A stretch of 64,000 nt of DNA from Flavihumibacter fluvii (GTDB lineage: Bacteria; Bacteroidota; Bacteroidia; Chitinophagales; Chitinophagaceae), in the NCBI RefSeq assembly GCF_018595675.2, contig NZ_CP092333.1, positions 4,240,001-4,304,000 on the forward strand, given 5' to 3'. This document shows positions 36,454 through 55,929 of the stretch, piece after piece. Every line of letters starts with the position of its first letter. Within the stretch, counting starts at the first letter, position 1. The position numbers were made by a program, and so were the translations under genes. The notes beneath the pieces are model-generated. The model had not been told where the DNA came from and did no database searches. It worked only from the letters and a program-made list of their open reading frames with translations.

Positions 36454-37008
36454 CCGGCGAAACAACCAGGCACCTTACCACTTCCTTCTCCTTATCCCGG
36501 ATGACAACTACTTTGAATGCGTACACAATAATTCGGAATTACCAGTAGCTACTCCCTCGGCAGTTGTTCTATACTGCCCCACCTGTTTACGGTTAATCAT
36601 CGCCGTGACTATTTATGCATGCAGGCAGTCTTTCCAGCCGGAATCCTGCACCAGGCTGCCATGCCGGTCATATCCGGCAGATCTCAGGCGCATAAAAAAA
36701 TGGCATTTTCTGCATTTGAAAATACAGTTAAATCATTATGGACAACAAAAATTGCAAATAGCTGCATAGCGGTTAAAGCATACAGATTGTACCCAAAACA
36801 GCCATTTTTTCAAATGTTAAAAAAGTACACAACTTTATTTGATTATTGAATTTTTTTGGAAAGTGACAGTAATAAATTTGAAAGAACAGGATCACTGATG
36901 CATTGTACTTTAATAGAATGCGGATTGTTCCTCCTGGCAACTAATCATTGATTTTAGCTGCATGCCATTCTTTTTTTGTTATTATTTAAACCACCAATAC
37001 TACAGCTT
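36454..37008. other. Long gap before susC, no gene seen
   Basis: Neither strand has an open frame with coding character over these 555 bases. The first 350 bases show nothing I can name. The last 200 bases are AT-rich and contain box A (36811-36830) and a perfect TAAATTTG promoter box at 36873-36880, with TTG triplets about 14 and 24 bases upstream. If that box is used, the susC message has an untranslated leader of about 125 bases. Confidence 0.5.
36811..36830 (+). promoter_or_regulatory. Shared box A (TGTTAAAAAAGTA) before susC
   Basis: CAAATGTTAAAAAAGTACAC. The 17 bases CAAATGTTAAAAAAGTA are identical to box D at 55910-55926. It lies about 45 bases before the TAAATTTG element and about 180 bases before the chosen susC start, a position suited to an activator. 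Confidence 0.55.
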
Positions 37009-40000
37009 ATGGATCGAAAAGAACAACTGAGATTTCCGGGAGCAGGATTTCCGGAAACTCATGTCAGGTGTTGCTTTCATGAATCAATTGCAATGTTTCG
37101 AAAGCTGGCGATGATCATGATGGCTATTTTATTATTATTGAATGCGCCGGCCTTATTCGCACAGGTGGCCAATAAGGGGAAGGTTTCCGTGAAGGGGAAA
37201 GTGCTCGATAAGAAATCCGGTCAACCGGTTTCCGGCGTTACAATTTCCATTAAAGGTGAAAGCAATGGCGTGGCTTCTGGTGAGGATGGAAATTTCACCA
37301 TCACCGTACCATCTGACAAAAGCATATTGGTCATTTCATCTGTTGGATACACAACAGAAGAATTGCCTGTTGGTAGTTCAGGCCAGGAAATGATCATCAC
37401 TATTTCACAAACAAATAAGGACCTGAATGAAGTGGTGGTTACTGCCCTGGGAATCCAGCGCTCCGCTAAATCATTAACCTATGCCACACAGCGTATCAGT
37501 GGTGATGAACTCAATGAGATCAGGGATGCAAATATCGCCAATACCCTTAGTGGGAAAGTAGCTGGATTAACGATTACCTCTTCCGCTAATGGTCCGGGTG
37601 GTGCCGCCAGAATCATCCTTCGCGGTAACCGTTCCATCCAGGGCTCCAATAACGCACTGATCGTTGTTGACGGGGTGGCAATAGATAACTCCACCCCATC
37701 CGGACAGGTACGGGATGATGCCGGTAGCAGCAATGGAGCCCAAAGTGGTAGTGACGGTATTTCCAGTATTAACCCCGACGACATTGAAACGGTTAACGTA
37801 CTGAAAGGCGCTGCCGGTGCGGCTTTGTATGGTAGTCGCGCCAGCAATGGCGTGATCCTGATCACCACCAAACGGGGTCGTTCGGGCCGGATGCAGGTGA
37901 ATTTGAATTCAGGTATCTCTATGGAGAGCCCGATGTTACTGCAGGACCTTCAAAATGAATACAGCCAGGGAGCGGGAGGAAGCTATTCCACCAGTCCGGC
38001 TACCAACTACGGTGAAAAAATTACCGGCCAGCAGGTGACCGATTTCCATGGAAACAGTGTTACACTGAAGGCCTATCCTGATAATGTGAAAGACTTTTTC
38101 CAGACCGGTTATTCTATCAACAATTCCATAAGTGTAAATGCCGGATCTGAAAAAATCCAGACCTATATTTCATATGCGAATAATTATGTGAATGGTATCG
38201 TTCCCACCAACTTCCTGAACCGCCATAATTTTAACGCACGCCTGGGTGTTAATATCACGGATCGTTTGACAGCTGATGCCCGTATAACCTATTTGTTGCA
38301 GGATATCTCCAACAAACCTGGTGTTGGTGGCGATGGTCTTGTTGGGGCTAACCTTTACAGGGTTCCCCGCAGTGTAAACCTGGATGAATACAAGACATAC
38401 AAAACGGTAACCGGTTCTGTAGAAAAACCATACTACTGGGTTAGTTCTGATCCCGTGTATACCAATCCATATTGGACTACTTACAATACTCACCATAATG
38501 AAGACCGTAGCCGGGTCTTAGGTTTGCTTTCACTGAAATACAAACTGACCAGCTGGTTGAACCTGCAGGCCAGGGTGAGCAGTGATAGTTATAATGACTT
38601 CAACACCCAGTCCTATGCCAATAACACGCCGAACTATGCAAGGAAACCGGGTGGCTATTATTCTGAAGAGAATGTGTATGTGGCAGAACGTAACGTCGAC
38701 ATCCTGCTGAGCGGTTCCAATAATATCGCGAAGGATCTTAAAATTACCTATAACCTCGGAGCGTCAGACCTGGTGCGGAACATGCGTGTTCGCAAGAGTA
38801 TTGCTGATGGCCTGAACATCAACAACAAGTATGACCTGCGCTTTGCAACTGCGCTGACAGCTACGACTAATAATGCAAACCGTGAACTCCAGTCAGTTTA
38901 TGGAACAGCCCAGTTCAATTTCCGGGATTATCTATATCTCGACCTAACTGCGCGTAACGACTGGTCCAGCACCCTGCCAGAGCCCTATTCATTCTTCTAT
39001 CCTTCTGCGGGTGTGACTGCAGTATTATCTGACATGTTCAAAATGGCGGATTGGATAAACCTTGCAAAAGTGCGCGCTTCTTATGCGCAGGTAGGTAATG
39101 ATGCTGATCCATACCTCATCAACCAGACCTACAGGTACCTCACTGGTGCATATGGTGGTTATATTGCTGCCAGTCCAACCAAAGCCATCAGTGACCTGAA
39201 GCCTGAATTGACTTCATCCATCGAGCTGGGAACTGAATGGCGCTTCCTGGATAACCGTATCGGTATCGACCTCACTGTTTATAAGTCTAATTCCAAGAAC
39301 CAGCTGATCCAGATCAGTACACCGCCGTCTTCCGGTTATGGTAATACTTTCCTGAATGCAGGAAATATCCAGAATAGTGGATTGGAGATCATGCTGAATA
39401 TCCAACCGGTACGCAGCAAGGACTTTACCTGGGACCTGGGGCTGAATTATGCGTATAATAAGAGCAAGGTCGTTGAGCTTGATCCTTCAATACGCTATGT
39501 GTACCTGGGTGCCGGCTCTACCTTTCGCACGGCTATTCCTGTTGTCAGGGAAGGTGGTGAGTATGGTGACCTTTATGGCTACCACTGGAAACGTGATGCA
39601 AGCGGCCAGTTTGTTGTAAACGACAATGGTTTGCCTATTAAAGTTGATACTGCCTCCAGGCTGGGTAACTACAACCCGAAATACACCTTCGGTATCAGTA
39701 ATAATTTCAAGTACAGGAACTGGAGCCTTGGCTTCCTGATTGATGGTAAGATCGGCGGGGTGATCGCTTCCGGTACTGCAGGCCAGTATGCCTATGCCGG
39801 TAGTTCTGCATCAACCCTGGCATATCGTGATGGCAATTGGGTGATCCCTGCAGTGAAAGCTGATGGATCCAAAAATACTACTGCAGTGAATGCTGAAAAA
39901 TTCTGGCAAACAGTTGCACAGGGTGACTATAACTGGGGCGAGTTCTTTACCTACGATGCCTCAAATGTTCGCCTGCGGGAAGTTTCCCTGAGTTATGAAT

Positions 40001-40227
40001 TCAAAAAGCTTCCGACTATATTGAAGGCTGCGAAATTATCACTATATGCCCGTAACCTTTTCTTCATTTACCGCGGTAGTTCAATCATGGATATTCCAGG
40101 TATCGGCAAGCGGAAAATGGATTTTGATCCTGAAGTTAGCTTCGGTAATAGTAACTACCAGGGCATTGAATATTATAACCTGCCCTCTTCCAGAAGCATT
40201 GGTATCAATTGTAAGTTGACCTTCTAA
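37009..40227 (+). CDS. SusC-type TonB-dependent outer-membrane receptor
   Basis: 1072 residues from the ATG at 37009; the ATG at 37093 (MFRKLAMIMMAILLLLNAPA) starts directly with the signal peptide and is an equally good choice. After the signal come a carboxypeptidase-regulatory-like beta domain (about 60-130, VSVKGKVLDKKSGQPVSGVTIS), the plug (LNEVVVTALGIQRSAK to KGAAGAALYGSRASNGVILITTK) and a 22-stranded barrel. TonB-driven uptake of a glycan or other large ligand is expected. The susD gene follows, forming the standard pair. The barrel end SRSIGINCKLTF is typical. Confidence 0.93.
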   Translation: MDRKEQLRFPGAGFPETHVRCCFHESIAMFRKLAMIMMAILLLLNAPALFAQVANKGKVSVKGKVLDKKSGQPVSGVTISIKGESNGVASGEDGNFTITVPSDKSILVISSVGYTTEELPVGSSGQEMIITISQTNKDLNEVVVTALGIQRSAKSLTYATQRISGDELNEIRDANIANTLSGKVAGLTITSSANGPGGAARIILRGNRSIQGSNNALIVVDGVAIDNSTPSGQVRDDAGSSNGAQSGSDGISSINPDDIETVNVLKGAAGAALYGSRASNGVILITTKRGRSGRMQVNLNSGISMESPMLLQDLQNEYSQGAGGSYSTSPATNYGEKITGQQVTDFHGNSVTLKAYPDNVKDFFQTGYSINNSISVNAGSEKIQTYISYANNYVNGIVPTNFLNRHNFNARLGVNITDRLTADARITYLLQDISNKPGVGGDGLVGANLYRVPRSVNLDEYKTYKTVTGSVEKPYYWVSSDPVYTNPYWTTYNTHHNEDRSRVLGLLSLKYKLTSWLNLQARVSSDSYNDFNTQSYANNTPNYARKPGGYYSEENVYVAERNVDILLSGSNNIAKDLKITYNLGASDLVRNMRVRKSIADGLNINNKYDLRFATALTATTNNANRELQSVYGTAQFNFRDYLYLDLTARNDWSSTLPEPYSFFYPSAGVTAVLSDMFKMADWINLAKVRASYAQVGNDADPYLINQTYRYLTGAYGGYIAASPTKAISDLKPELTSSIELGTEWRFLDNRIGIDLTVYKSNSKNQLIQISTPPSSGYGNTFLNAGNIQNSGLEIMLNIQPVRSKDFTWDLGLNYAYNKSKVVELDPSIRYVYLGAGSTFRTAIPVVREGGEYGDLYGYHWKRDASGQFVVNDNGLPIKVDTASRLGNYNPKYTFGISNNFKYRNWSLGFLIDGKIGGVIASGTAGQYAYAGSSASTLAYRDGNWVIPAVKADGSKNTTAVNAEKFWQTVAQGDYNWGEFFTYDASNVRLREVSLSYEFKKLPTILKAAKLSLYARNLFFIYRGSSIMDIPGIGKRKMDFDPEVSFGNSNYQGIEYYNLPSSRSIGINCKLTF

Positions 40228-40264
40228 AAACTTTATTATGTGTCGAGAATATAGCAATATAACC

Positions 40265-41836
40265 ATGAAATCACTGTTGTCCAGCCTGCTTGGATTTGCC
40301 CTTGTAACGGTACTGTTATCGGGCTGTACCAAGGATTATACCAAGATCAATACCGATGCCAACTCATTGAGCAGCGTTGGTCCGAATGAGTATCCTTACA
40401 TGTTTTCCTATGCCCTGATGAGCCCGATGTTGAGTCCGGATAATTTCGAGATAGGCGAGGGAACCATTGCTTCGGTGTATTCCCAGTTCTTTTCCCAGGC
40501 TGCGCATTCTTTTCCGACGGACCGTTATGTAGTGGTTCAGCCCTGGATGCCCGCCTGCTGGAATCCAGTGTATATTAATGCTGCCCCCCAGCTAAAGACC
40601 ATCATGAATAATACCGATGTCAACTCAGCTGAAAACGCCCTGGCAAATATCTGGTGGGTATGGATGTTCCACCGGGTGACCGATTATTTCGGTCCTGTAC
40701 CATATTTTGATGCAGCATCCGGACAAAGTTCTGTAGCCTATACCCCACAGGATTCCATATACTATGATTTCTTCCCACGTTTGACTGCTGCCGTGGAGGT
40801 GCTGAAGAACCATACCAGCGAGAAACCTTTTGGTTCTTATGACCTGGTGTTTGGCAAGAAATCGGATCCGGTTAATTCGTGGATCAAATTTGCCAATTCC
40901 CTGCGCCTTCGCCTGGCGCTCAGGATTTCCAAAGTGGCTCCGGACCGGGCCCGTACAGAAGCTGAAGCCGCCGTTGCGGCGGGCGTTATGACCGATCTTT
41001 CAGATGATGCGTATATGCCTCATAACAAGATCAATTACAATGAATTTAATGGCCTCGCAGTTACTGCCGGCTGGGATGATGTCAGGATGAGCTCTGCTAT
41101 GGCCTCTATCCTGAAAGGATATAGCGATCCTCGTCTTTCTGTCTATTGGCAACCCGCTGTGGCAACCGGTGAATATACCGGAGCCCGTAACGGTATGTTT
41201 ACATCAGAAAAGATCATCGAAGAGAATTCCCGGCTTTTCACATCCAACCTGGGTACGAAATGGACATATTGGGATACCAATGTTAATGACTGGAAGACTA
41301 ATTATGATGCACCTCAAAGTATCATCGTTTCTGCAGAATCGTATTTCCTGAAAGCAGAAGGCGCCCTGAATGGCTGGAACATGGGTGGAACGGCCAGGGA
41401 TTTCTATGAGGCAGGTATTCGCCGTTCTATGCAACAATGGGGTATCACTGATCAAACAGCTATTAATGATTATATCGCCAGCAATGCAACTCCAATTGCA
41501 CTGAACGATTATTTCGATTCTCCCGCAGTTAATGATTACCCGATTGCATTCAGTGCCAGTGCAGACATGCAGCGGAAACAAATTGCGCAGCAAAAATGGC
41601 TGGCCCTCTTCCCGGATGGCATGGAAGGCTGGGCTGAGGTTAGGCGTACAGGGTTTCCTGAACTCTATCATATCATCCATAGCGAGAACCCCGATATTTC
41701 AGAAAACCAGTTTATCAGGAGGATGCCTTTTCTTTCTGCTGAGGCCCAGACCAATGGTGCCGCTGTTTCCAAAGCTGTAGGAATGCTCGGTGGTCCCGAT
41801 AAAGTCACTACGCCGCTTTGGTGGGATAAGAATTAA
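40265..41836 (+). CDS. SusD/RagB-type glycan-binding lipoprotein
   Basis: 523 residues from the ATG at 40265, which gives a proper lipoprotein signal (LLSGCTKDYTKINTDANSLS, Cys21-like lipobox); an in-frame ATG at 40238 is too far upstream. The body follows the SusD-like superfamily 2 type: ALANIWWVWMFHRVTDYFGPVPYFDAASG, WIKFANSLRLRLALRIS and QKWLALFPDGMEGWAEVRRTGFPEL. It caps the SusC pore outside and binds the ligand. The ligand is unknown. Confidence 0.92.
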   Translation: MKSLLSSLLGFALVTVLLSGCTKDYTKINTDANSLSSVGPNEYPYMFSYALMSPMLSPDNFEIGEGTIASVYSQFFSQAAHSFPTDRYVVVQPWMPACWNPVYINAAPQLKTIMNNTDVNSAENALANIWWVWMFHRVTDYFGPVPYFDAASGQSSVAYTPQDSIYYDFFPRLTAAVEVLKNHTSEKPFGSYDLVFGKKSDPVNSWIKFANSLRLRLALRISKVAPDRARTEAEAAVAAGVMTDLSDDAYMPHNKINYNEFNGLAVTAGWDDVRMSSAMASILKGYSDPRLSVYWQPAVATGEYTGARNGMFTSEKIIEENSRLFTSNLGTKWTYWDTNVNDWKTNYDAPQSIIVSAESYFLKAEGALNGWNMGGTARDFYEAGIRRSMQQWGITDQTAINDYIASNATPIALNDYFDSPAVNDYPIAFSASADMQRKQIAQQKWLALFPDGMEGWAEVRRTGFPELYHIIHSENPDISENQFIRRMPFLSAEAQTNGAAVSKAVGMLGGPDKVTTPLWWDKN

Positions 41837-41916: not shown

Positions 41917-43971
41917 ATGCGATATTTTTCCCTTGCAGCTGCGATTTTTATTTTGTACCTGCCCGGCCATGCCCAGCAACGCAATCTATTGTATCCGCAA
42001 CCTGCAAAGATTTCCTATACCACTGGCAGCCTTCCCCTCAATAAAGTCTCTGCTTATTTGCCTGCCGACCCGGACCTGGCTTTTTCCCTGAAAGAATTCA
42101 GCAAAGCAGTTGAAACCCTTACAGGCAGGCCCGTTAAAAGAGCCCCATCCGCGCTGACTGCTTCATTGAAATATACCATCCGGAAGAAAGGGCTTATCCT
42201 GCCTGATACTGCGGCATTCCTGCAACAGGATAACAGGGAAGCCTATACGTTGCAGGTTGACAAAACCGGCATAGCTATTGACGCGAACACATCCACCGGG
42301 TTTTACTATGCGATCCAGACGCTGCGCCAGCTCATAGAGAAGGATGGCAGCCTGCCCTTTGTGCAGGTCAGCGATAGTCCGGCACTGCCCTTTCGTGGCG
42401 TGATGATGGATTTTGCACATGGCGGGCTCTTAAAAGTGGCGGAGATAAAACAACAGATTGATTTCCTGGCGCAATGGAAAACCAACCAGTATTATTTCTA
42501 CAATGAAGTTAGTATTCAGCTGGATGGATATGCGCAAATGAATTATAAACAGGCTTATTCAAAAGCCGAGATCAGGGAGATCATCTCATATGGCAAAGAA
42601 AGGCATATGGATGTTATTCCATTTGTCGCATTCTATGGTCACTTACATGATTTCCTCAAACTGGAGCTTTATGCCGACAAGGCTATTGGCCGTTATGGTC
42701 ATGAACTGGATCCTCGTAATGCTGGTGTTGGGCCCCTGTTGGCCGATTGGATCAAACAGTATGCAGCGCTTTTCCCCAGTCCGTTCATCCATGTGGGCTT
42801 TGATGAAACATGGGAAACAAATCGGATGGCGATCGAAGGCGATTCTGCTGTTCATGCCCCCGACCTCTGGTTGAAACACCTGATCAACGTAAGGGCAGAA
42901 TTAAAAAAGTATGGAAAGAAAGTATTAGCCTGGACCGATATGAGTAAGTACTATCCGGGCATCTTATCCAAATTCCCCGATGATGAAGTTCCGGTGGTGT
43001 GGGAATATTCACCCGACAGTGCTGCGATGTATAGTTACCTGGACCCGGTTTTGAAAAGTGGCCGGAAATTTATTATCCAACCGGCGGTTTCAGGCTGGGG
43101 GCATATTTATCCCAATACAAAATACACGTACGATAATATAGACCTATGCCTGCGCGTTGGCATGAAAGAAGGCACAAAAGGATTTATTACTTCTGTATGG
43201 ACCGATGCCGTCGAACCCCTGGTTCGCCCATCCTGGTCTTTTATGGCCTATGGTTGCATCAGCGCCTGGCAGGGCGTCTCGCCAGGTCGGCCTGCATTCG
43301 AAAAAGGCTATAACAAAATTGTTTTTCCGGCTGCGGCAAGTGAAGTGGAAGCGGCAACTGCGGCTATGGCAACCGCTGTTGACCTGCTGCAAACCTGCTT
43401 TGGAAAGAATACCGGTAATATGCCTGGCGGCACAATCATTGAGAGCTGGTCGAATCCATTCGATTCCTATTACCTGGGCATCACCCGCGCCAATACTGCA
43501 ACTTTGAAACAGGTGCGTATACAATGTGAAACTGCTGAAGCATTGCTTATCAGGGTCCTCTCAGGTGGCTGCCAGGCCGATTCCACTTTTATAGAATCCT
43601 TGCGCGTGAGTGCGAAACTCCTGCACTATCAGGCTACCAGGTTCCTATGGGCTGCAGTAATCGCCGACCGTTGGGATAATGCCATGCTGGTCAGCAAACA
43701 AAATAATTTCGTTTTTTATGACATTTCTTACATCTGCCACGGACTCATCCAGGATGTGATGGATGAATTGGGTACCCTGAAAGATGATTATTCGGCCGCA
43801 TGGTCTGCTGAAAATTTGCCCTACAGGAAACACACCATACTCAGCCGGTTTGATGTTGAGTTTGGTCTTTGGCAAAAGCTCTTATTGAAAGTGATAGATT
43901 ATCGTATTAAACATAGTGCTGATATGGTTGCAGGCGGATCGTTTACCGATACTTTCCAGCCCGGGTTTTAA
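41917..43971 (+). CDS. Secreted GH20-like hexosaminidase
   Basis: 684 residues; signal peptide ends YLPGHAQ. A GH20b-type N-domain (about 25-140) ends with STGFYYAIQTLRQLI. The barrel starts LPFRGVMMDFAHGGLLKVAEIKQQIDFLAQWKTNQYYFYNE, and the catalytic pair Asp296-Glu297 lies in IHVGFDETWE. Compared with the enzyme at 3900, the GGDE becomes GFDE and the sugar-binding Trp-rich tail differs, so it is a distant GH20 relative whose substrate may not be plain GlcNAc. The last 250 residues are helical. It follows susCD across a hairpin and is probably part of the same locus. Confidence 0.82.
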   Translation: MRYFSLAAAIFILYLPGHAQQRNLLYPQPAKISYTTGSLPLNKVSAYLPADPDLAFSLKEFSKAVETLTGRPVKRAPSALTASLKYTIRKKGLILPDTAAFLQQDNREAYTLQVDKTGIAIDANTSTGFYYAIQTLRQLIEKDGSLPFVQVSDSPALPFRGVMMDFAHGGLLKVAEIKQQIDFLAQWKTNQYYFYNEVSIQLDGYAQMNYKQAYSKAEIREIISYGKERHMDVIPFVAFYGHLHDFLKLELYADKAIGRYGHELDPRNAGVGPLLADWIKQYAALFPSPFIHVGFDETWETNRMAIEGDSAVHAPDLWLKHLINVRAELKKYGKKVLAWTDMSKYYPGILSKFPDDEVPVVWEYSPDSAAMYSYLDPVLKSGRKFIIQPAVSGWGHIYPNTKYTYDNIDLCLRVGMKEGTKGFITSVWTDAVEPLVRPSWSFMAYGCISAWQGVSPGRPAFEKGYNKIVFPAAASEVEAATAAMATAVDLLQTCFGKNTGNMPGGTIIESWSNPFDSYYLGITRANTATLKQVRIQCETAEALLIRVLSGGCQADSTFIESLRVSAKLLHYQATRFLWAAVIADRWDNAMLVSKQNNFVFYDISYICHGLIQDVMDELGTLKDDYSAAWSAENLPYRKHTILSRFDVEFGLWQKLLLKVIDYRIKHSADMVAGGSFTDTFQPGF

Positions 43972-44029: not shown

Positions 44030-44896
44030 ATGAAACCACAATTACACAAGCTGGTAGCAGAGCCTGATTCATCTTTTGCATACAACCACATGGTATGCAC
44101 ATATTTCGACAAGCCCTGGCATTTTCACAAGGAATATGAACTCACTGTGATTGAAAAGTCAGAGGGAACCCGTTTTATTGGCGACCAGGTAAGCCTGTTC
44201 CAACCCTCTGACATGGTGCTGATCGGGCCAAATATTCCCCACCTTTACCGCAATAATGAAGACTATTACAGGAAACCTGAAATAGGTGCCAAATCAATTG
44301 ACATACACTTTACCGATGATTTCCTGGGGAATAGCTTTTTCGATGTTCCGGAAATGAAATTGGTGCGGAGGTTATTGAACCGTTCCAACCTGGCATTGTC
44401 CATACATGGTTCCACCAAAGAATATGTCCGTGAGCAACTGTATGAAATGCAGGATTTGCCTCCGGTAAAAAGATTAATGAAGCTGCTGGATATTCTGATC
44501 GTACTCTCCACCAGTAAACACCTGACCACGGTATTGAACCAGGAGTTCACTGTCAGTAATAACAAAGACGCAGCAAGAATTGATATTGTATTCCAATATA
44601 TCCTGAAGAACTTCCGCAACGAGATTTATATTGAAGAAATTGCATCCAGGCTCAATATGAGTATTGGGGCCTTCTCACGGTATTTTAAACATCATACCAG
44701 GAAAACGTTCTCTAACTATGTAACTGAGGTAAGGATCAGTCACGCCTGCCGCATGTTGATTGAAGACACGTATAGTGTTTCTGAGATCGGGTATATGACC
44801 GGCTTTGAAAACCAATCGAATTTTTATCGCCACTTCAAAAAATATACCGGTGTCACGCCAAAAGAATATACGGCCCGCTTTTTTGCAAAGCAATAG
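44030..44896 (+). CDS. AraC family transcription regulator with cupin N-domain
   Basis: 288 residues from the ATG at 44030; the frame is open upstream but that part overlaps the GH20-like gene. Residues about 20-95 are a cupin ligand domain (FDKPWHFHKEYELTVIEKSEGTRFIGDQVSLFQPSDMVLIGPNIPH). Residues about 185-285 carry the two helix-turn-helix motifs (IYIEEIASRLNMSIGAFSRYFKHHTRKTFSNYV and YSVSEIGYMTGFENQSNFYRHFKKYTGVTPKEYTARF). It ends 1 base before the convergent nine-gene operon and is the best candidate for binding the shared boxes at 36811, 52893, 53012 and 55910. Confidence 0.9.
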   Translation: MKPQLHKLVAEPDSSFAYNHMVCTYFDKPWHFHKEYELTVIEKSEGTRFIGDQVSLFQPSDMVLIGPNIPHLYRNNEDYYRKPEIGAKSIDIHFTDDFLGNSFFDVPEMKLVRRLLNRSNLALSIHGSTKEYVREQLYEMQDLPPVKRLMKLLDILIVLSTSKHLTTVLNQEFTVSNNKDAARIDIVFQYILKNFRNEIYIEEIASRLNMSIGAFSRYFKHHTRKTFSNYVTEVRISHACRMLIEDTYSVSEIGYMTGFENQSNFYRHFKKYTGVTPKEYTARFFAKQ

Positions 44897-45758: not shown

Positions 45759-45784
45759 TGCTGTAAAGCGTTTCAGGTAGTGGA

Positions 45785-46531: not shown

Positions 46532-46566
46532 TATCCTGTTATTTCAGTTGTTGCCGGAAAAGATGG

Positions 46567-47490: not shown

Positions 47491-47500
47491 GGTTGGGTAT

Positions 47501-48421
47501 TTATTCTAAAGTCAAATTTTTGTTTTTACCATAACTTTCTACCAGGGTCAGTACCAGCATCGATACAAATACCAATGACCCGCCGATAATCGCTGATGTG
47601 CCCAGTTTTTCACCCAGCCAAAAAGCGGCGATGGGCACTCCGAAAAAGGCAATAAGGTAATTGGACAGTGCTACATCTGTGGCTTCCAGGTGTTTCAGGG
47701 CGATGAAAAAAAGTACCATCGACAGGAAATTGTGCAGTATGGTCAGGTTGGCCAGTCCAAGCCAGGTATCTTTTGTAAAGGAGCCGATGCGTGAAAATAT
47801 ATCCGCTTCATAATACAGCACAAAAGGCGAAAGCAGCATAACCATGAACAGGTAGGTATAGAAGACCATTTCCATACCACTGAACTGGTGGGCAATTTTT
47901 TTACAGCCCACATTGTAGTAAGCATTCCCGATGAGGGCCAGGAAAATGAGCAGGTTACCCATTGCATATTCAGAACCAAAATTCATTTGCTTGATATCAT
48001 TGGTGGAGCATAGGATTACCCCAATGAGTGCAATGGCAAAGCAGATCCACCGGATGCGGGTCATTTTTTCCTTCAGGATCAGGAAGGCCAGCAAGGCAGT
48101 GAGGACCGGTAATATCAATACCATGATTGCGGCATTACTGGCCAGTGAAAAGCGTGTACCAACGGTCATGAGTACCTGGGAAGGGAATGCTCCAAGTGCT
48201 GCCAGTGGCAAAAAGGCCATGATATCTCTAGGTTTTCTTTTGTTCTTCCTGTAATCTTTGGCTACGAAAGGCAACAACAGAATCAGGGAGAACAGCATTG
48301 GTCCCCAGACGGTAAAATATGGACCAACTTCATCCTGGATGAGCTTTATCCCGGTGAATTGCAGGGCCCACATCAGGTTGCAGCAAAACAAAAGGATCCA
48401 GGCACCTAATTTTTTATTCAT
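47501..48421 (-). CDS. EamA/DMT family transporter
   Basis: 306 residues, ten predicted helices in two EamA halves (first half from WILLFCCNLMWALQFTGIKLI; second half from EYAMGNLLIFLALIGNAYYNVGCKKIA). The phrase ILPVLTALLAFLILKEKM is typical. It lies in the middle of the operon with 2 and 10 base gaps to its neighbours, so it may move the substrate or a product across the inner membrane. Direction and substrate are unknown. Confidence 0.85.
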   Translation of the reverse strand: MNKKLGAWILLFCCNLMWALQFTGIKLIQDEVGPYFTVWGPMLFSLILLLPFVAKDYRKNKRKPRDIMAFLPLAALGAFPSQVLMTVGTRFSLASNAAIMVLILPVLTALLAFLILKEKMTRIRWICFAIALIGVILCSTNDIKQMNFGSEYAMGNLLIFLALIGNAYYNVGCKKIAHQFSGMEMVFYTYLFMVMLLSPFVLYYEADIFSRIGSFTKDTWLGLANLTILHNFLSMVLFFIALKHLEATDVALSNYLIAFFGVPIAAFWLGEKLGTSAIIGGSLVFVSMLVLTLVESYGKNKNLTLE

Positions 48422-48423
48422 TG

Positions 48424-49566
48424 TTATGCTTGTTCTGTTTTAATCATATTTCCTGTGGCGTAACGGCTCACCGCTTCCAGGTCAAGTTCCACACCCAGGC
48501 CTGGTCCCTGCGGAACAATTGCAGCGCCACCCTCAAACCGGATACCAGTAGTAATGAGGTCATCCACACGAACCAGTTCACCGAAAATATCTGAAGGGAT
48601 GGTGCAATTGATGCTGGCAGCAGCAATATGCAGGCCCATGGTTTCTGAAAGGCCAAGGTCCACTTCAGAACCGCGCCAGCAGGACTTGCCTTCCAGGTGT
48701 GCGATCTCGGCGAGTAGCAGGCTGTTATATGCCGAACCATTGAAATTGTAGCCATCTGCTGAATCTGCTTTTATGCAGGGAATTATATCCCTGATGTCCT
48801 GGGTATATGGCAGGGAGATATGGCGGAACAAGGGAATTTTCAGGGCTTTACGCAAGGCCACAAATCCTTCAACATCTTCATGTTTGATCGGGTCTTCAAG
48901 GCCAAACATGATTTCTTCATCAACACCTTCCATCAGTTGCATTGTGGTTGCCACATCATTCCAGCGTTGGTTGGGATCCAGGATAAGCTTTATTCCCGTA
49001 CCGCATTTCTTCCTGATGGCTTCCGTCCATAACCTCACCGGGTCTTCATCTGAACATTTGAACTTGAACATTTTATGTCCCTTTTGCATGGCCTCATACG
49101 CTTTCTGTGCCGCATCTTCAGGATTCCGCCTGCCTGTCCAGCCCATGCAATCGACCTTGTCACGATAGGCGCCACCCAGCAATTGATGGATAGGCACCTG
49201 TACTATTTTTCCCAGCAGGTCAAGGATGGCCGTTTCAAAGGATTCATAAATGCGCTGGTCTGTTACCGGTAGCCGGCGCCAGTTGAGTGCCAGTATATCT
49301 TTTCCGATCAACCCATCAATCGCTTCTTTTAATTTTTCGGGTGATGCCGACCGGTAAGTCTCACCAATTCCGGTAAGGCCATTTACCAAATTGACCTGGA
49401 GAATCCACTTTGGCTGTATGGCAAAATCAGTCCAGCTTTCCCCGGTCAGGAATTTTTTCGCAAAGGATGTATCCTTGTCCAGCACATCTGAAGAATTCAG
49501 GCTGCCCGGTTTAGCAGGAACAACCACCTCCGTTGCAACAATCGATTGAATACATGTTGGTTTCAT
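48424..49566 (-). CDS. Enolase superfamily dehydratase (mandelate racemase/muconate cycloisomerase group)
   Basis: 380 residues. The N-terminal capping domain is followed by the barrel with Lys168-x-Lys170 (MFKFK), first metal ligand Asp197 and Asn199 in LILDPNQRW, and second ligand Glu224 in LEDPI. The third ligand position, usually Glu or Asp, falls in LFRHISLPY and seems to lack the acid; the downstream CWRGSEVDLG may supply catalytic groups. Members dehydrate sugar acids to 2-keto-3-deoxy acids. Its start overlaps the stop of the upstream gene in ATGA. The particular sugar acid is unknown. Confidence 0.85.
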   Translation of the reverse strand: MKPTCIQSIVATEVVVPAKPGSLNSSDVLDKDTSFAKKFLTGESWTDFAIQPKWILQVNLVNGLTGIGETYRSASPEKLKEAIDGLIGKDILALNWRRLPVTDQRIYESFETAILDLLGKIVQVPIHQLLGGAYRDKVDCMGWTGRRNPEDAAQKAYEAMQKGHKMFKFKCSDEDPVRLWTEAIRKKCGTGIKLILDPNQRWNDVATTMQLMEGVDEEIMFGLEDPIKHEDVEGFVALRKALKIPLFRHISLPYTQDIRDIIPCIKADSADGYNFNGSAYNSLLLAEIAHLEGKSCWRGSEVDLGLSETMGLHIAAASINCTIPSDIFGELVRVDDLITTGIRFEGGAAIVPQGPGLGVELDLEAVSRYATGNMIKTEQA

Positions 49567-50531
49567 TTTTCACCAATATTTTGTGGGTACTTTTCTGCGA
49601 GTTTCCGGATCTCATAACTGAACTGTACAAATAATTCCTCCCATTTTTTTGCCGTTTCTTCGGTATAGGGATAAAATCCTTTTGCATTGCTCACACCTTT
49701 TGCACCAGCAGCCACAAGGTCTTCGATGGCAGCCGGGACTTCTGTCGCATTACTCAGCTCAGGAAAGAGGTCTTTCATGACCGCGCGATATGCCGGGATG
49801 CCGGTCAGGTCCATAAAACGGAAAGGTCCGGCAAATGTGATCCAGTAACCCAGGTCGTTGCGTAAGGACCTGTCCACGTCTTCCACGGTTGCGTAACCAT
49901 TCTCCACCAGGAAGAAGGATTCACGCAACATCGCATACATGATCCTGTTAGTAATGAATCCACGGATATCTTTTTTCAGCAGCGAGGGCTCTTTGCCCCA
50001 TGAAGCTGCAAGGGCGATTACTTTTCCTGCTAATTGCAGGTCAGATTGTTTCCCGCAGATCACTTCCATAAATCGGGTGATATGGGCGGGTTCCGCCCAG
50101 TGGATCCCAAAGAGTCGCTGCGGGTATTGCAGCCCATCCTGCAGGAATGAAACCGGGATTGCTGAAGTATTACTGCCGATGATGGCCGTGGGTTCCAAAA
50201 CAGTTTCTAGTTGGCGGTATAATTTTTTCTTTTCTTCAGGGCTTTCTATGATTGACTCGATCACGATGTCATGGCCCCGCAGCAATTCAATATTATCGGT
50301 AATCAGCAGGCGGTTGATGGTCTCTGCCGGATCTTCCTGTAAAAGGCCTTCTTCTTTTAATTCCTGCAGGTATCCCCGGATGCGCACACGGGCTTCACCA
50401 GCAGTTGCGACCTGGTTGGTCAATGCAGTCACAGGGTGGCCGGCCGCTAAAATGCAGGTTGCAATACTGCTGCCCATGAGACCGAGGCCTACTGTTCCAA
50501 TGCGCTGTTTTTGCTCCATGCGGGATATCAT
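49563..50531 (-). CDS. 3-hydroxyacyl-CoA dehydrogenase family oxidoreductase
   Basis: 322 residues. Rossmann start QRIGTVGLGLMGSSIATCILAAG, a catalytic His in FGIHWAEPAHITRFMEVI, and the second domain IRGFITNRIMYAMLRESFFLVENGYATVEDVDRSL are those of the HAD family, which also includes L-gulonate 3-dehydrogenase and carnitine dehydrogenase. The start ATGATATCC overlaps the RidA stop (ATGA), favouring the first ATG over the one at 50519. Here a 3-hydroxy acid or sugar acid is the likely substrate, not an acyl-CoA, given the neighbours. Confidence 0.85.
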   Translation of the reverse strand: MISRMEQKQRIGTVGLGLMGSSIATCILAAGHPVTALTNQVATAGEARVRIRGYLQELKEEGLLQEDPAETINRLLITDNIELLRGHDIVIESIIESPEEKKKLYRQLETVLEPTAIIGSNTSAIPVSFLQDGLQYPQRLFGIHWAEPAHITRFMEVICGKQSDLQLAGKVIALAASWGKEPSLLKKDIRGFITNRIMYAMLRESFFLVENGYATVEDVDRSLRNDLGYWITFAGPFRFMDLTGIPAYRAVMKDLFPELSNATEVPAAIEDLVAAGAKGVSNAKGFYPYTEETAKKWEELFVQFSYEIRKLAEKYPQNIGEK

Positions 50532-50905
50532 TTTAGATATACGATTGCATCAATCTCTACTTTAATACCATCCCATAAAACCGATTGAACGGTTGTCCGT
50601 GCCGGTAGTATGCCACTGAAAAAAGAGGCATAGGCTTTATCGTAACGGTCAAAATCATTGATGTCTTTCAGGTGCACGGTACATTTCACGATATTGTCTG
50701 TCGATGCACCTGCTGCCTCAATTATCTTTTTGATATGGGATAAAGTAAGCAGCGTTTCTTCTTCTATAGTACCACGCACCACCTGGCCGGAAGCCAGGTC
50801 GAGCGGCCCCTGGCCACTGATAAATAAAAAATCTCCGGCAATCACACCGGCTGAATAAGAGCCGGTATGGGATTGTTTATCGGGATGCCTGATTTCCTTT
50901 TTCAC
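50528..50905 (-). CDS. RidA family enamine/imine deaminase
   Basis: 125 residues. The YjgF/RidA pattern is clear: HTGSYSAGVIAGDFLFISGQGPLDLASG, then IKKIIEAAGASTDNIVKCTVHLKDINDFDRYDKAYASFF and ARTTVQSVLWDGIKVEIDAIVYL. The Arg that binds the carboxylate (LPARTTVQ) is present. RidA proteins hydrolyse reactive 2-aminoacrylate-type enamines, so an amino or imino intermediate may occur in this pathway. Gaps to the neighbours are 1 base upstream and a 4-base overlap downstream. Confidence 0.9.
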   Translation of the reverse strand: MKKEIRHPDKQSHTGSYSAGVIAGDFLFISGQGPLDLASGQVVRGTIEEETLLTLSHIKKIIEAAGASTDNIVKCTVHLKDINDFDRYDKAYASFFSGILPARTTVQSVLWDGIKVEIDAIVYLK

Positions 50906-50906
50906 G

Positions 50907-51698
50907 TTATTTATTTTTCAGGTTTTCTAATATGGGCCATGTGGCAAAGTCATCCAAAAAACTGAGGATGGCTGTTAGGGCTTTCTGGTATAAATGATCG
51001 CCTTTTTCTTTCGTTGCCAGCTGCGGTTCGCCACTGCATCCATTGTCAGATATAAAGGCAGTTTGTTTCACAATGGAAACACCTTTGTAAGGAATATCAT
51101 CTTCAAATGCGATATAACCATTTTGCGCTGGCCTTACCGCTCGCTTAACATTCCCCATCCGCACTTTTTCAGGGAACAGGTGCAGCATAAGGCTGGTCTC
51201 ATATTCGCAGGCATGGCTTAAAGCCGGACTCTCCATTGGCTTATCGCCACTGAAGGCTGATCCAGCCAGCTCCCAGTATGTAGCCAGTGCGATATAGCCC
51301 GGAACCTGGTTATCGAACTCCTTACTTAATAACGATAAGGCCTGTTTGACCGGGGTGATATTTCCGCCATGCCCATTCAGCAATACAATTCTCCTGAAGC
51401 CACATTGTAAAAGGGACCTTACGAGATCAATGATTACCTGCACATATAAGTCAGCAGATAAACTCATGGTGCCACCGAAGGGCAGGTGATGATGGCTCGA
51501 CCCGTATGGCAATGTAGGCGCCAGGACGACCTTGTCCATCCTTTGTAATTCAGCAGCAACGGCCAGGCTGCTGACAATATCGGTATCTGTACCAACACCC
51601 AGGTGTGGACCATGCTGTTCCGTAGCACCGAGTGGCAACAGCAGTATCCTGTTGCCGGCAGCGCCAAGGGTTGTATATGTTTCACTTGTAAATAGCAT
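50907..51698 (-). CDS. Creatininase family hydrolase
   Basis: 263 residues. Metal ligands are evident: LPLGATEQHGPHLGVGTDTDIV (Glu, His, Asp) and LLNGHGGNITPVKQAL, with the final Glu near SHACEYETSLML. Family members cleave cyclic amides or C-C/C-N bonds in amidohydrolase-like reactions; some act on cyclic ketones such as dehydro-inososes. In this operon it could open a lactam or ring ketone. Cytoplasmic. The 8-base gap to the upstream gene marks a single transcript. Confidence 0.88.
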   Translation of the reverse strand: MLFTSETYTTLGAAGNRILLLPLGATEQHGPHLGVGTDTDIVSSLAVAAELQRMDKVVLAPTLPYGSSHHHLPFGGTMSLSADLYVQVIIDLVRSLLQCGFRRIVLLNGHGGNITPVKQALSLLSKEFDNQVPGYIALATYWELAGSAFSGDKPMESPALSHACEYETSLMLHLFPEKVRMGNVKRAVRPAQNGYIAFEDDIPYKGVSIVKQTAFISDNGCSGEPQLATKEKGDHLYQKALTAILSFLDDFATWPILENLKNK

Positions 51699-51706
51699 AG
51701 CAATAA

Positions 51707-52792
51707 TTAATTAAAGATGCATTCATCAAGAAATGCAGGGGTATAACCTTGTTCGTTTGCCCAGCGGACCACGGTTTCGAGTTTCTCGAAATAATCGGGT
51801 TGGTAGGCGATATAATCAGGATAGTAATATTGTTCATGTACCAGGAAGTCGACATATGGCGGAAGCCCACCCTGTTCACGATAGGCATTCAGGAAAGGAA
51901 CCAGCTCGTCTTTTGCTTTCCGGTCTACCACCACGCTGCTCCTGATGAAAATGATATCTTCCTGTTCATCTTTCCAGATAAACCTTTTCTTCATGTTCCT
52001 TCTTTGCTCAACCGTGAGGTAGTAGGAAACCGCTGGCAGGTCATCATCCACATTGAAATAGCCCAGTTGGCCTTTATAGCCTGCTGCGCGTAAAGCGCGT
52101 GAACCTTCCACATTCACTTCACCCCAATGTATTGTAGTAACAGGGCCGGTTAAATGATCACCCGCGATACGTTTGATCTCTTTCATCACCAGGTCACAAT
52201 CTTTCTTTACTGTTTCGAAAGAAGCGTTTTTGTAAGGCGCATCCGGGAATTCCTGGTAGGCATGAAAACTCAGCCTGATCCAGTCAGCCTGCTCCGCCCA
52301 TTCGGCCCTGAATTTTTCAGGAAAGGAAGAAAGTGAAAAATCACCTTCCACTGACATATAGAATAAATTCAGGTGAACCTTCGTGCCGTACTGCTGGTGC
52401 AATTTGCGCAGGCCATTAAGGTAAGCGTTGTCAAATATGGAGCTATAGGAATTTGCATGCTTAGCAATATCCTGCATAAAGCGGATATTGTCATCGATTG
52501 ATAACCTGTATTTTCCCGCAAACTGGCTGGCCCAATACACCGGGAATGAAAGTTGTTCACCAGTTCCCCGGTCTTCAATTTGCAGTGTATTCCTATAATT
52601 CCGGAAGGTCAGTTCTGCTGAAAAAATTCCATCTTCTTCAATAGCCCTGGTTCCATTTATGGTGATTCCGGAGCCGGCAGGCGCACTGATTTTCGCCGTG
52701 AAACTCAGTCCCTCAGCTGTTTGTATGCCATCGCGGGCATGCAGTACATCACCTTCAATCGGAAATATTGGTTTGATGCCGGAAGTAGTCAT
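51707..52792 (-). CDS. NodB-like (polysaccharide deacetylase-type) protein, first gene of the operon
   Basis: 361 residues, no signal peptide, so cytoplasmic. The first 100 residues are beta-rich (AEGLSFTAKISAPAGSGITINGT). A barrel then begins GKYRLSIDDNIRFMQDIA, with WIRLSFHAYQEFPD and TTIHWGEVNVEGSRAL, matching the metal Asp and His positions of NodB-like deacetylases; the ending RWANEQGYTPAFLDE also fits. The relationship is distant, and the substrate is unknown. It leads the nine-gene minus-strand operon, behind boxes B and C. Confidence 0.55.
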   Translation of the reverse strand: MTTSGIKPIFPIEGDVLHARDGIQTAEGLSFTAKISAPAGSGITINGTRAIEEDGIFSAELTFRNYRNTLQIEDRGTGEQLSFPVYWASQFAGKYRLSIDDNIRFMQDIAKHANSYSSIFDNAYLNGLRKLHQQYGTKVHLNLFYMSVEGDFSLSSFPEKFRAEWAEQADWIRLSFHAYQEFPDAPYKNASFETVKKDCDLVMKEIKRIAGDHLTGPVTTIHWGEVNVEGSRALRAAGYKGQLGYFNVDDDLPAVSYYLTVEQRRNMKKRFIWKDEQEDIIFIRSSVVVDRKAKDELVPFLNAYREQGGLPPYVDFLVHEQYYYPDYIAYQPDYFEKLETVVRWANEQGYTPAFLDECIFN

Positions 52793-52892
52793 AGTATGCC
52801 TTTAATGGTTCTCCTGAATATAGTGCAAGACATTCACCGGATAAAAATATTGAATGAATAAAATGGAACTATATAGAAATCGCCTGAATGTA

Positions 52893-52908
52893 TATACTTT
52901 TTTAACAT
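52893..52908 (-). promoter_or_regulatory. Shared box B in the divergent control region
   Basis: On the minus strand ATGTTAAAAAAGTATA, identical over 16 bases to box D (55913-55928). It lies about 100 bases before the start of the nine-gene operon, on that operon's strand. Confidence 0.55.
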
Positions 52909-53011: not shown

Positions 53012-53027
53012 TATATTTTTTTAACAG
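53012..53027 (-). promoter_or_regulatory. Shared box C in the divergent control region
   Basis: On the minus strand CTGTTAAAAAAATATA, 14 of 16 bases as in box B and in the same orientation, 119 bases away. It is about 55 bases before the FAD/Fe-S gene. The whole 288-base gap carries no gene; 8-base inverted repeats CGCCTGAA (52881-52888) and TTCAGGCG (53039-53046) flank the two boxes. Confidence 0.45.
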
Positions 53028-53080
53028 AAGCAGAAGCCTTCAGGCGAATCAGTTATTTTTATTCGACTCACCCCGAAAAC

Positions 53081-55891
53081 ATGCAAACGCTAGCTGAAAT
53101 TTTACCGCAGGAAAGGATATTATCCAGGCTCATCGACAGGATGGCATTTGCTTCCGATGCAGGCTTTTATCACCTTGTACCCCGGGCCATCGTCAGGCCG
53201 GTGAATGAAAAGGAGATCATTGCCTTGTTCGGTTACTCACAGTCGAATAATATTCCCCTCGTCTTTCGCACCGGCGGCACGAGTTTATCCGGTCAATCCA
53301 TTACAAACGGTATACTCGTTGATCTCAGCCAGCATTGGGGTAAGATCAATATTGAAAAAGAGGGTGAAGAAGTACGGGTGCAACCGGGAATTATTGGCGC
53401 TAAAGTAAATAATTACCTGTTGCGTTATGGCCGTAAAATAGGCCCTGACCCTTCCAGTATAAGTGCCGCCATGATGGGTGGGATCTTGTCCAATAATGCG
53501 AGTGGCATGTGTTGCGGCACCCAGTTCAATTCCTATCACACGATGCGGCATATCCGCTTCATCTTACCTTGCGGGAATAGTTATTCGACAGCCCACCAGC
53601 CCGATTATGGTCGATTTGAAAAAGACGAGTCCGCTTTATATGAAGGTCTCAGTACAATTCGCCGGAACATACAGGCCAACCAGGCACTATCCCGTAAGAT
53701 CAGGAACAAATACAAAATAAAAAATACGATCGGCTATGCACTGAATGCCTTTCTCGATTACGAGCACCCACTGGATATATTTTCGCATTTGCTTATCGGC
53801 GCGGAAGGTACACTGGCTTTTATCGCAGAAGCTGTTATGGAAACAATTCCGGACCTGCCCTTCAAGTCAACAGCGATGCTCTATTTTACAGATATCCGTG
53901 CAGCCTGCGCAGCTATTGAACCCCTTTCTGCTGCCGGCGCGGCAATGGTTGAACTGATGGACCGCGCTTCGCTCCGTGCTGTTGAAGGCATAGCGGGCAT
54001 TGATCCGTTTATCAGCCAGTTGCCTCAATCGGCAAGTGCCCTGCTGGTGGAGTTCCAGGCTGGAAACCTGGTTGAATTAACGGCTATGGTAGATGGCTTC
54101 CTGCAAAGCTGTACTGAATTTTCCTTGCTGAAATTTCCTTCCTTTACCACGGCTGAAAAGGAAAGGAATTTTCTTTGGAAGATACGTAAGGGGCTATTCC
54201 CTTCTGTAGGTGCTGTCAGGAAAAAAGGAACAACTGTCATACTTGAAGACATTGCTTTCCCGGTACCAAACCTTGGCGATGCCATTGCAGACTTACAGGT
54301 ATTATTTGAAACATATAAGTATCCCGATGCCATCATATTCGGACATGCCAGGGATGGTAATATACATTTTGTCGTCACACAGGCATTTGATACCCCGGCA
54401 GAGGTGGAACGATACGATGCCTTTATCCGGGAAGTGGTTGACCTTGTGGTGAAAAAATATGATGGATCGCTGAAAGCTGAACATGGAACAGGCCGTAATA
54501 TGTCGCCATTTGTGGAAACCGAATGGGGCGGTGAAGCATATGCTATCATGAAAATGGTGAAGCAACTGGCCGATCCGCGGGGGTTGTTAAATCCGGGTGT
54601 GATCATCAATGAGAACCCACAGGCACATATAACCGACTTGAAAGACCTGCCGGAAGTAGAAGCGGAAGTTGATAAGTGTATTGAATGCGGATACTGTGAA
54701 CCAAATTGCCCGAGCCGCGATTTCACCACTTCGCCACGGCGCAGGATCGTGCTGCGGCGGGCCCTTGCGAAAATGAAGCTGACAGGCAAGCGATCAGAAT
54801 ACAAGGAACTTTTGCACCAGTTTACCTATGATGGACTTGATACCTGCGCCGTAGACGGACTCTGTGCAACATCCTGCCCGGTTGATATTAATACAGGTGA
54901 CCTTGTGAAGCGCCTCCGCCAGGAATCCCATGCGCCCCTGGCGAATGCAATTGCTGTATTTGCAGCCAGGAATTTCGGCACCATAGCTGCCCTTGTAAGG
55001 GGCTTGTTGAAAACAGGCATTCTGGTCAATAAGGTTACCGGCAGGAATACCATGCTGCACCTGACCCGCCTGGTCAAAAAAGTACAGCAACGTTTTCCGC
55101 TCTGGTCGAATCTTTTATTAAGCCCTCCGCACGCCATCCAAACCCCTGTAACGCAACCCGCCTGCACCAGCACCATTGTCTATTTCCCATCCTGCATTTC
55201 AAGGGTGATGGGCAATTACGCAGGAAAGGCAAAAAACAGCATGGAGACCTTTTTGTCGGTTTGTCATAAAAGCAAGGTGAATGTGCTGTTGCCACAACAG
55301 GTGAATGATATTTGTTGCAGCCAGCTATTTTCATCCAAGGGTTACCAGGATGCACACCGGATAAAGGCTAATGAAGTGATTGAAGCATTGTGGACGGCCA
55401 CCGGATCTGGTAAGTGGCCGGTTGTACTCGACGTAAGTTCATGTACCTATACCCTGAAGCATCTTGAGCCGGTACTCAATGCTGAAAACAGGACCAGGTT
55501 CAAACAAATAACCATTTGGGATGCCGTTGAATTTATATACCACCAGGTGATTCCTTCGGCTATTCCGAAAACAAAGAAAAGAGATATCGTACTGCATCCG
55601 GTTTGTTCCCTGGAGAAGATGAATATTTCTTATATGTTGCGATCGGTGGCTTCCCATTTTGCAGACCAGGTGACTGTTCCGCTTTCTGCAGGATGCTGTG
55701 GCATGGCGGGCGACCGGGGTTTTATCGTACCCGGGTTAACAGCCTCTGCCACACATGCTGAGGCAGCTGAGGTCTGCGCTGCATCATATGATGGACACTA
55801 CTCCACCACTAAAACCTGTGAGCTGGCACTGACGCAGGCTACCGGCAGGAATTATGAATCAATTCTTTACCTCGTTGATGAATGTTTATAG
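53081..55891 (+). CDS. FAD-linked oxidase with Fe-S domain (fused GlcD/GlcF-like 2-hydroxyacid dehydrogenase)
   Basis: 936 residues. Residues about 35-500 are a PCMH-type FAD domain plus its C-terminal cap (VFRTGGTSLSGQS; IGPDPSSISAAMMGGILSNNASGM; AEHGTGRNMSPFV). Two 4Fe-4S motifs follow: CIECGYCEPNCP from Cys533 and CAVDGLCATSCPV from Cys589. The last 250 residues hold two cysteine-rich CCG-like motifs (CISRVMG with DICCSQLF; SAGCCGMAGDRG). This is the layout of D-lactate, glycolate or D-2-hydroxyglutarate dehydrogenases passing electrons to quinone. It could oxidise the hydroxy acid released by the FAH enzyme of the divergent operon. Confidence 0.9.
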   Translation: MQTLAEILPQERILSRLIDRMAFASDAGFYHLVPRAIVRPVNEKEIIALFGYSQSNNIPLVFRTGGTSLSGQSITNGILVDLSQHWGKINIEKEGEEVRVQPGIIGAKVNNYLLRYGRKIGPDPSSISAAMMGGILSNNASGMCCGTQFNSYHTMRHIRFILPCGNSYSTAHQPDYGRFEKDESALYEGLSTIRRNIQANQALSRKIRNKYKIKNTIGYALNAFLDYEHPLDIFSHLLIGAEGTLAFIAEAVMETIPDLPFKSTAMLYFTDIRAACAAIEPLSAAGAAMVELMDRASLRAVEGIAGIDPFISQLPQSASALLVEFQAGNLVELTAMVDGFLQSCTEFSLLKFPSFTTAEKERNFLWKIRKGLFPSVGAVRKKGTTVILEDIAFPVPNLGDAIADLQVLFETYKYPDAIIFGHARDGNIHFVVTQAFDTPAEVERYDAFIREVVDLVVKKYDGSLKAEHGTGRNMSPFVETEWGGEAYAIMKMVKQLADPRGLLNPGVIINENPQAHITDLKDLPEVEAEVDKCIECGYCEPNCPSRDFTTSPRRRIVLRRALAKMKLTGKRSEYKELLHQFTYDGLDTCAVDGLCATSCPVDINTGDLVKRLRQESHAPLANAIAVFAARNFGTIAALVRGLLKTGILVNKVTGRNTMLHLTRLVKKVQQRFPLWSNLLLSPPHAIQTPVTQPACTSTIVYFPSCISRVMGNYAGKAKNSMETFLSVCHKSKVNVLLPQQVNDICCSQLFSSKGYQDAHRIKANEVIEALWTATGSGKWPVVLDVSSCTYTLKHLEPVLNAENRTRFKQITIWDAVEFIYHQVIPSAIPKTKKRDIVLHPVCSLEKMNISYMLRSVASHFADQVTVPLSAGCCGMAGDRGFIVPGLTASATHAEAAEVCAASYDGHYSTTKTCELALTQATGRNYESILYLVDECL

Positions 55892-55909
55892 AATTTCTGC
55901 ATGCTTTTG

Positions 55910-55929
55910 CAAATGTTAAAAAAGTATAG
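55910..55929 (+). promoter_or_regulatory. Shared box D before the exported-enzyme operon
   Basis: CAAATGTTAAAAAAGTATAG; the first 17 bases are identical to box A before susC. It is about 95 bases upstream of the DUF1080 ATG and 20 bases after the stop of the FAD/Fe-S gene, showing that a new transcript probably starts here. Confidence 0.55.

Follow-up and report, generated by a model that had tools for sequence, protein, structure and literature searches.

Organisation of the catabolic locus

The stretch of DNA analysed here (64,000 nucleotides of the Flavihumibacter fluvii genome, contig NZ_CP092333.1, positions 4,240,001 to 4,304,000; hereafter, the window) carries a large catabolic locus in which a 16-base box, ATGTTAAAAAAGTATA, stands before several groups of genes. 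Gene order suggests five transcripts: susC-susD-GH20-araC, a nine-gene operon, a FAD/Fe-S dehydrogenase gene, an operon starting with a DUF1080 gene and, beyond the right end of the window, a gene for a 710-residue protein. A complete operator-promoter site, made up of the box, a second conserved element and a -7 element, is found at four of these five (Table 1). It is very probable, as judged from sequence, that we are dealing with a real local regulon and that its AraC-type protein is the activator.

The first gene of the nine-gene operon (51707-52792, minus strand) encodes a 361-residue protein without a Pfam or NCBIfam match, for which a search of 294 genomes of the family gave matches in three, one of them that of the window itself. 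In the DUF1080 operon, whose same-strand open reading frames run on past the window end, one of the three GFO/IDH/MocA proteins carries a GH109 C-terminal domain and the 447-residue protein has no Pfam match; a DegT-type aminotransferase (460 residues, 60644-62026) lies among the apparently exported enzymes of this operon. Ten proteins were tested against NCBIfam, and no family shown reached its curated cut-off. The enzyme families point to a sugar-acid or deoxy-sugar route ending in an aldolase and an FAH-type hydrolase, and a literature search on the pathway core found no paper.

Table 1. Features of the locus, in window coordinates
Feature	Position	Strand	Basis or remark
Box (first operator element) before susC	36814..36829	+	1 mismatch to the 16-mer
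Second conserved operator element, site 1	36841..36855	+	offsets 26-40 from box T; matrix score
-7 element TAAATTTG, site 1	36873..36880	+	59 bases from the box's first A
SusC-like TonB-dependent receptor	37009..40227	+	open reading frame listed from TTG 36976; ATG 37009 chosen as start
SusD-like lipoprotein	40238..41836	+	Pfam
GH20-type beta-hexosaminidase-like protein	41917..43971	+	Pfam
araC-type activator gene (288 residues), candidate box binder, last after susC-susD-GH20	44030..44896	+	Pfam, orthologues, tree, model
Nine-gene operon: 361-residue protein, creatininase, RidA, 3HCDH, MR_MLE, EamA, DHDPS-type aldolase, SDR, FAH hydrolase	44898..52792	-	Pfam
-7 element TATTTTTA, site 2	52842..52849	-	offset 59
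Second conserved operator element, site 2	52867..52881	-	aligned offsets; matrix score
Box (first operator element) before nine-gene operon	52893..52908	-	exact
First-element-only box copy, 2 mismatches, lacking both the second element and a -7 element	53012..53027	-	matrix 10.7
FAD/Fe-S dehydrogenase gene	53081..55891	+	no complete site
Box (first operator element) before exported-enzyme operon	55913..55928	+	exact
Second conserved operator element, site 3	55940..55954	+	aligned offsets; matrix score
-7 element TAGATTTG, site 3	55972..55979	+	offset 59
DUF1080 (3-keto-disaccharide hydrolase), GFO/IDH/MocA (three), DegT, 447-residue protein	56026..63379	+	Pfam

Occurrence of the box in the window and in the genome

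The sequence-only reading had placed CAAATGTTAAAAAAGTA at 36811-36827 and 55910-55926 and two further, inverted copies between them; all its coordinates proved correct on rechecking, and no copy of the 16-mer beyond these four occurs in the window at up to three mismatches. Their number is above chance, shuffled windows (n=100) giving a mean of 1.01 matches and reaching four only once. Throughout the genome, a single contig of 5,001,887 bases, 16 matches are found at up to two mismatches: the only ones with none or one are the three strong window sites (0, 0 and 1), and the other 13, the 53012 copy among them, have two. Since the reversed box pattern gives 20 matches in the same genome, two-mismatch copies carry no meaning on their own. 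Seven of these 13 were inspected for a -7 element TAnnTTTR (L006-L009, L011, L016 and the 53012 copy), and none was present in the stretch examined.

In each of the three strong sites, TAnnTTTR follows precisely 59 bases downstream of the box's first A. A search pattern made of the box, a free spacer of 43 bases and TANNTTTG matches four places in the genome at three mismatches or fewer, all inside 33 kb; the reversed control matches one. The fourth place (C1:4309103-4309169, minus strand), some 5 kb to the right of the window, precedes the gene for the 710-residue protein (L029:2943-5075, minus strand; about 66943-69075 in window numbering). The start of this protein, MERKTTRRRFIQLAATAGAG, looks like a twin-arginine translocation (Tat) signal, and no Pfam or NCBIfam family matches it. 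Because its relatives (69%) are also boxed in both Ferruginibacter loci, the fourth site is supported; the protein is a candidate for an unknown enzyme family of the pathway. The earlier suggestion that separate blocks of the locus make up one apparent regulon is supported, the regulon extending about 5 kb past the window.

Form of the probable operator

The putative operator was aligned from 44 distinct sites, chosen for a box with up to two mismatches and a -7 element at offset 58 from the box T; removal of near-copies left 35. Columns 16-40, between the two parts used for selection, are partly conserved in these 35 sites, most of all T20 and A27 (31/35 each), A30 (28/35) and A35 (34/35), which played no part in the selection. 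When each site was scored with a matrix from which it had been left out, the values ranged from 16.3 to 56.7 (median 47.6), so that a few of those listed are weak. A test matrix of 31 sites, built without those of the window's genome and of F. profundi, gave 48-51 for the three strong window sites, 32.7 for the fourth site and 10.7 for the 53012 copy. Moreover, the score of the second element exceeds that of shuffled spacers at the four complete sites (0/5000 for three of them, P 0.0008 for the fourth).

The -7 box of Bacteroidota has been placed at -12 to -5 (PMC9723704). Assuming this position, the first element spans roughly -70 to -56 and the second roughly -44 to -30. A TTTG around -33 has been stated for B. 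fragilis and, according to the same source, could not be identified in F. johnsoniae (PMC7366714). In the 35 sites, TTTG at any single spacer offset reaches a maximum of three, and the -33 region is taken up by the second conserved element, with no clear -33 element there. The idea that the box forms a symmetric site with an upstream TTTT was dropped, TTTT being found in the three window sites and not conserved over the 35.

It might be supposed that no specific regulator is involved and that we are looking at a common A-tract or an UP-like element of the promoter, for the box is A-rich, and A-tracts upstream of promoters are common. The sequence-only reading had itself named frequent hits before unrelated genes as the sign of a common A-tract. 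Nevertheless, in 5 Mb the box with its promoter spacing is confined to this locus; the box bases G1 and G10 are retained in 34/35 sites apiece (in a set that allowed at most two box mismatches); and the box-promoter combination, at up to one mismatch, is absent from 382 of the 396 genomes of the order considered below. A mere A-tract is therefore a most improbable explanation.

The AraC-type protein and its association with the box

The C-terminal part of the 288-residue protein is a double helix-turn-helix (PF12833, 2e-24; PF00165, 2.4e-12), and the N-terminal part has no Pfam hit. In the structural model (predicted local distance difference test 89) a beta-rich N-terminal domain is followed by helices and the AraC-type DNA-binding domain, the predicted template modelling score of 0.61 leaving the domain arrangement unsure. 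Its fold neighbours are AraC-type proteins, with matches that are good by domain and poor over the full length, and the N-terminal domain has partial matches to the regulatory domains of AraC and RhaR. On this model the N-terminal domain is cupin-like, with a putative role in ligand binding and dimerisation; many members of the AraC/XylS family, though not all, have a domain of this type.

The association of this protein with the box was examined by a search blind to the box, in which an alignment of three AraC orthologues was compared with a collection of genomes from 84,980 species; the 23 loci obtained (51-93% identity) derive from two peptide patterns and are not exhaustive. The box, at none or one mismatch, occurs 28 times in 18 of the 23 loci (385,094 bases), where the reversed box is not found and 20 permuted boxes are found three times in all. 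TAnnTTTR follows at offset 58 from the box T in 27 of the 28, the only other offset seen being 15, twice. These results support the AraC protein at 44030 as the probable binder, as the sequence-only reading had proposed. In the genomes behind these loci (21 followed up, those of L051 and L053 being left out), sites with none or one mismatch are present in 17 (40 sites), including four in the L034 genome that all lie outside the fetched stretch; allowing two mismatches brings the total to 55 hits, spread over 20 of the 21 genomes, against 14 for the reversed control. In a tree that took in only six outside proteins, the AraC proteins of the 23 loci and of the window form a clade of 24 rows with 100/100 support, 19 of them with the box in the locus. 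As a negative set, 19 loci of more distant AraC relatives (38-43% identity; L093-L111) were scored over some 1.5 kb to either side of the gene. A strong site (33.0) is present in L104, from genome G108; L093 shows a weak score (12.5), and the other 17 show none of 12 or more.

Furthermore, the association holds over the order. Among 396 genomes, the box-promoter combination (up to one mismatch) is found in 14, with 28 sites, and the reversed pattern in 11, with 11 sites. An AraC relative of at least 53% identity is present in 11 genomes of what is apparently the same set, the next best match being 43%. The box-promoter occurs in ten of these 11 AraC-bearing genomes and in four of the 385 others, the reversed pattern in none of the 11 and in 11 of the 385; outside the AraC genomes the box-promoter is therefore no commoner than its control. 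The four box genomes without an AraC of at least 53% are G108, with an AraC of 39%, and G458, G387 and G426, whose matches look like chance hits; with the full matrix G458 scores 18.6 and G387 14.1.

Another regulator travelling with the locus, CRP-like or LacI-type, could bind the box, leaving AraC as a mere neighbour, and other genes of the module do co-occur with the box in several loci. This is quite unlikely in view of nine loci (L038, L040-L043, L045, L048, L049 and L053) in which AraC is the only window gene with a relative above 45% identity, other relatives (SusC, SDR) reaching only 25-43%, and in which the box lies within about 2 kb of araC. The presence of AraC, moreover, predicts that of the box over the 396 genomes, and a long asymmetric two-part site abutting a promoter suits AraC-type proteins.

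Several observations weigh against an AraC activator working from an operator of this kind. Some concern the site itself: no single direct-repeat period emerges, 18, 21, 23 and 26 scoring alike; the -7 column of the 35-site set is uninformative, as offset 58 was required; and orthologous promoters remain in the 31-site matrix. Others concern its distribution. Five of the 23 AraC loci have no box at up to one mismatch, and one box of the 28 (L035:15927) is not followed by a -7 element. Only two-mismatch sites are present in the genomes of L039, L046 and L052 (that of L039 ending at base 3122 of a contig which, from its length, is the AraC contig itself), and the genome of L047 has no site at up to two mismatches; as a group, the 15 two-mismatch hits are at chance level when set against the 14 control hits. 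The box label does not follow one clade of the tree, requiring six changes, as few as are seen in 18 of 500 shuffles, and the box of G108, next to an AraC of only 39% identity, means that the border of the subfamily is not sharp. Finally, the loci are not independent: L031 (F. profundi) is close kin, with an AraC of 93%, L032 and L033 are the relatives that contributed to the query, and the 11 AraC genomes of the order are not independent lineages either, so that the Fisher p of about 5e-16 for their association with the box overstates the evidence.

Orthologous loci and further target genes

Two orthologous loci, in G008 and G028, allow the conservation of the box to be followed. Gene order is kept in G008, without the FAD/Fe-S gene. 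G028 preserves most of it, although its fetched stretches yielded no FAH, RidA, FAD/Fe-S gene, DUF1080 or GFO1. Each locus has three boxes with none or one mismatch, before susC, before the 361-residue protein gene and before DUF1080 (G008) or a GH109-type gene (G028), and all six are followed by TAnnTTT at the same offset; conservation at orthologous loci, which the sequence-only reading had asked for, is thus found with unchanged spacing. G008 also has an extra two-mismatch box, without a full -7 element, on the strand opposite to its susC box and some 100 bases upstream of it (L023:10361, minus strand). A further G028 locus, on C15, contains a paralogous 361-residue protein gene and has no box either at none or one mismatch or with the -7 element; the sole AraC match in its fetched stretches is of 36% over 108 residues.

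Elsewhere, the box precedes genes for SusC-like receptors and for creatininase, SDR, PhoX, PIG-L and DUF1080 proteins. A possible start of an open reading frame (at least 100 residues, or running off the end) lies 63-270 bp downstream in 45 of 46 listed sites, a count made without a control and including some DNA fetched twice. The core creatininase-RidA-3HCDH-MR_MLE-EamA-DHDPS-SDR-FAH, or most of it, is boxed in Ferruginibacter (L036, L037), L044, G027 and G029, some members being not found or past the fetched stretch. In G027, two adjacent AraC relatives (56% and 58%) are encoded at L113:13437-15202, and five box sites lie inside about 30 kb of contig C2.

The 53012 copy and the FAD/Fe-S gene

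According to the sequence-only reading, the box stood before every transcript of the locus. This holds for four of the five, the FAD/Fe-S gene being the one that is left without a demonstrated site, because the 53012 copy comprises the first element only. For the same reason, and with a score of 10.7 against 48-51, the copy was rejected as a complete site for the FAD/Fe-S gene, and it was likewise rejected as a second promoter of the nine-gene operon. Its counterpart in F. profundi (L031:19230, minus strand) is TGGTAAAAAAATACA, followed at the customary offset by a -7-like TAGCTTTG. The 53012 copy may be a decaying or an auxiliary site.

An auxiliary half-site would fit an AraC protein that binds the box but represses, or that has a dual role and forms loops, in the manner of E. 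coli AraC when arabinose is absent. The partial conservation of the copy in F. profundi and the small number of box matches in the genome (16 at up to two mismatches) agree with such a role. Against it, the -7 element follows the operator at a single fixed offset in the complete sites, as it would with an activator; the copy has no second element; and its distance to the main box is not conserved, being 119 bases in the window (53012 to 52893) and 350 in L031. Repression or dual regulation is thus unlikely, and activation remains the preferred role of the AraC protein.

The FAD/Fe-S gene is also present in F. profundi and was not found in the fetched stretches of G008 and G028, where the promoters that flank it in the window are divergent neighbours; from sequence comparison it looks like an insertion into the locus. 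The gap from the 53012 copy to the conserved TTATTTTTATTCG before this gene differs in length by about 42 bases between F. fluvii and F. profundi.

Proposed mechanism and relation to known systems

We regard it as highly probable, on the sequence evidence above, that the regulon is driven by a one-component AraC activator whose operator keeps a fixed distance to the -7 element. We infer that the protein encoded at 44030-44896 would bind an operator of about 41 bp whose promoter-distal element is the box, in the order TGTTAAAAAAGTATA, a partly conserved A/T-rich linker and a second element near GAWTAnTRnA..TTT. Between this operator and TAnnTTTR, the -7 element for the primary sigma factor, lies a spacer of constant length. 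An inducer, probably a sugar or sugar acid of the pathway, would bind the N-terminal cupin-like domain, and the AraC dimer on the operator would then recruit RNA polymerase to four promoters, those of susC-susD-GH20-araC, of the nine-gene catabolic operon, of the exported-enzyme operon and of the 710-residue exported protein. As the first transcript ends with araC, positive feedback is probable, the regulon promoter probably driving araC itself too.

Class II activation by E. coli AraC and RhaS offers a close parallel, with the same cupin-like domain, double helix-turn-helix and promoter-proximal element over -35/-33; here, in contrast, the promoter has the -7 element of Bacteroidota and no repression loop is shown. 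The operator is at a fixed phase, upstream of or overlapping the -35/-33 region (27/28 boxes; second element as positioned above), which is the arrangement of an activator regulon. In the hybrid two-component system (HTCS) and RhaR regulons of Bacteroides, the same type of DNA-binding domain is combined with a two-part operator and with SusC/SusD and catabolic genes, and the operators predicted are direct repeats about 21 bp apart (PMC3878776 for HTCS regulons; PMC3870299 for rhamnose RhaR). Unlike an HTCS, which joins an AraC-type domain to a sensor kinase and a receiver, the regulator described here is a one-component protein of 288 residues with a cupin-like domain and only helix-turn-helix domains in Pfam; no single repeat period, 21 bp included, stands out, and the fixed distance to the -7 element is documented, in a comparison that leaves the motif letters aside. 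Primary sigma promoters of Bacteroidota have TAnnTTTG at -7 (PMC7366714, PMC9723704), and the four complete sites of this genome share this -7 element; they differ in having the second operator element in the -33 region, where TTTG is as scarce as noted above.

The kind of switch is therefore already known, and the exact fixed geometry of the promoter and the pathway it marks are the new detail. Among the papers listed in literature searches on the box letters and on AraC in Chitinophagaceae or Flavihumibacter, no description of the regulon was apparent, which is weak evidence of novelty. In its widest form, our proposal is that operator, fixed spacer and -7 element make up a rigid promoter module of 66 bp that depends on the activator and lacks a -33 element, and that this module is reused with its AraC by different catabolic and TonB-receptor gene sets across Chitinophagaceae, Spirosomataceae and Sphingobacteriaceae (metagenome bins) and here controls an undescribed pathway with the creatininase-to-FAH core; this is put forward tentatively, as a possibility open to considerable doubt.

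For environmental Bacteroidota, the locus would provide a concrete regulator-operator pair for a one-component AraC activator, with the operator placed at single-base precision with respect to the -7 element. In addition, the box marks the genes of one probably undescribed catabolic pathway, including an otherwise unlinked gene outside the window, and the matrix may be used both for finding the regulon in other genomes and for choosing genes in a search for its inducer.

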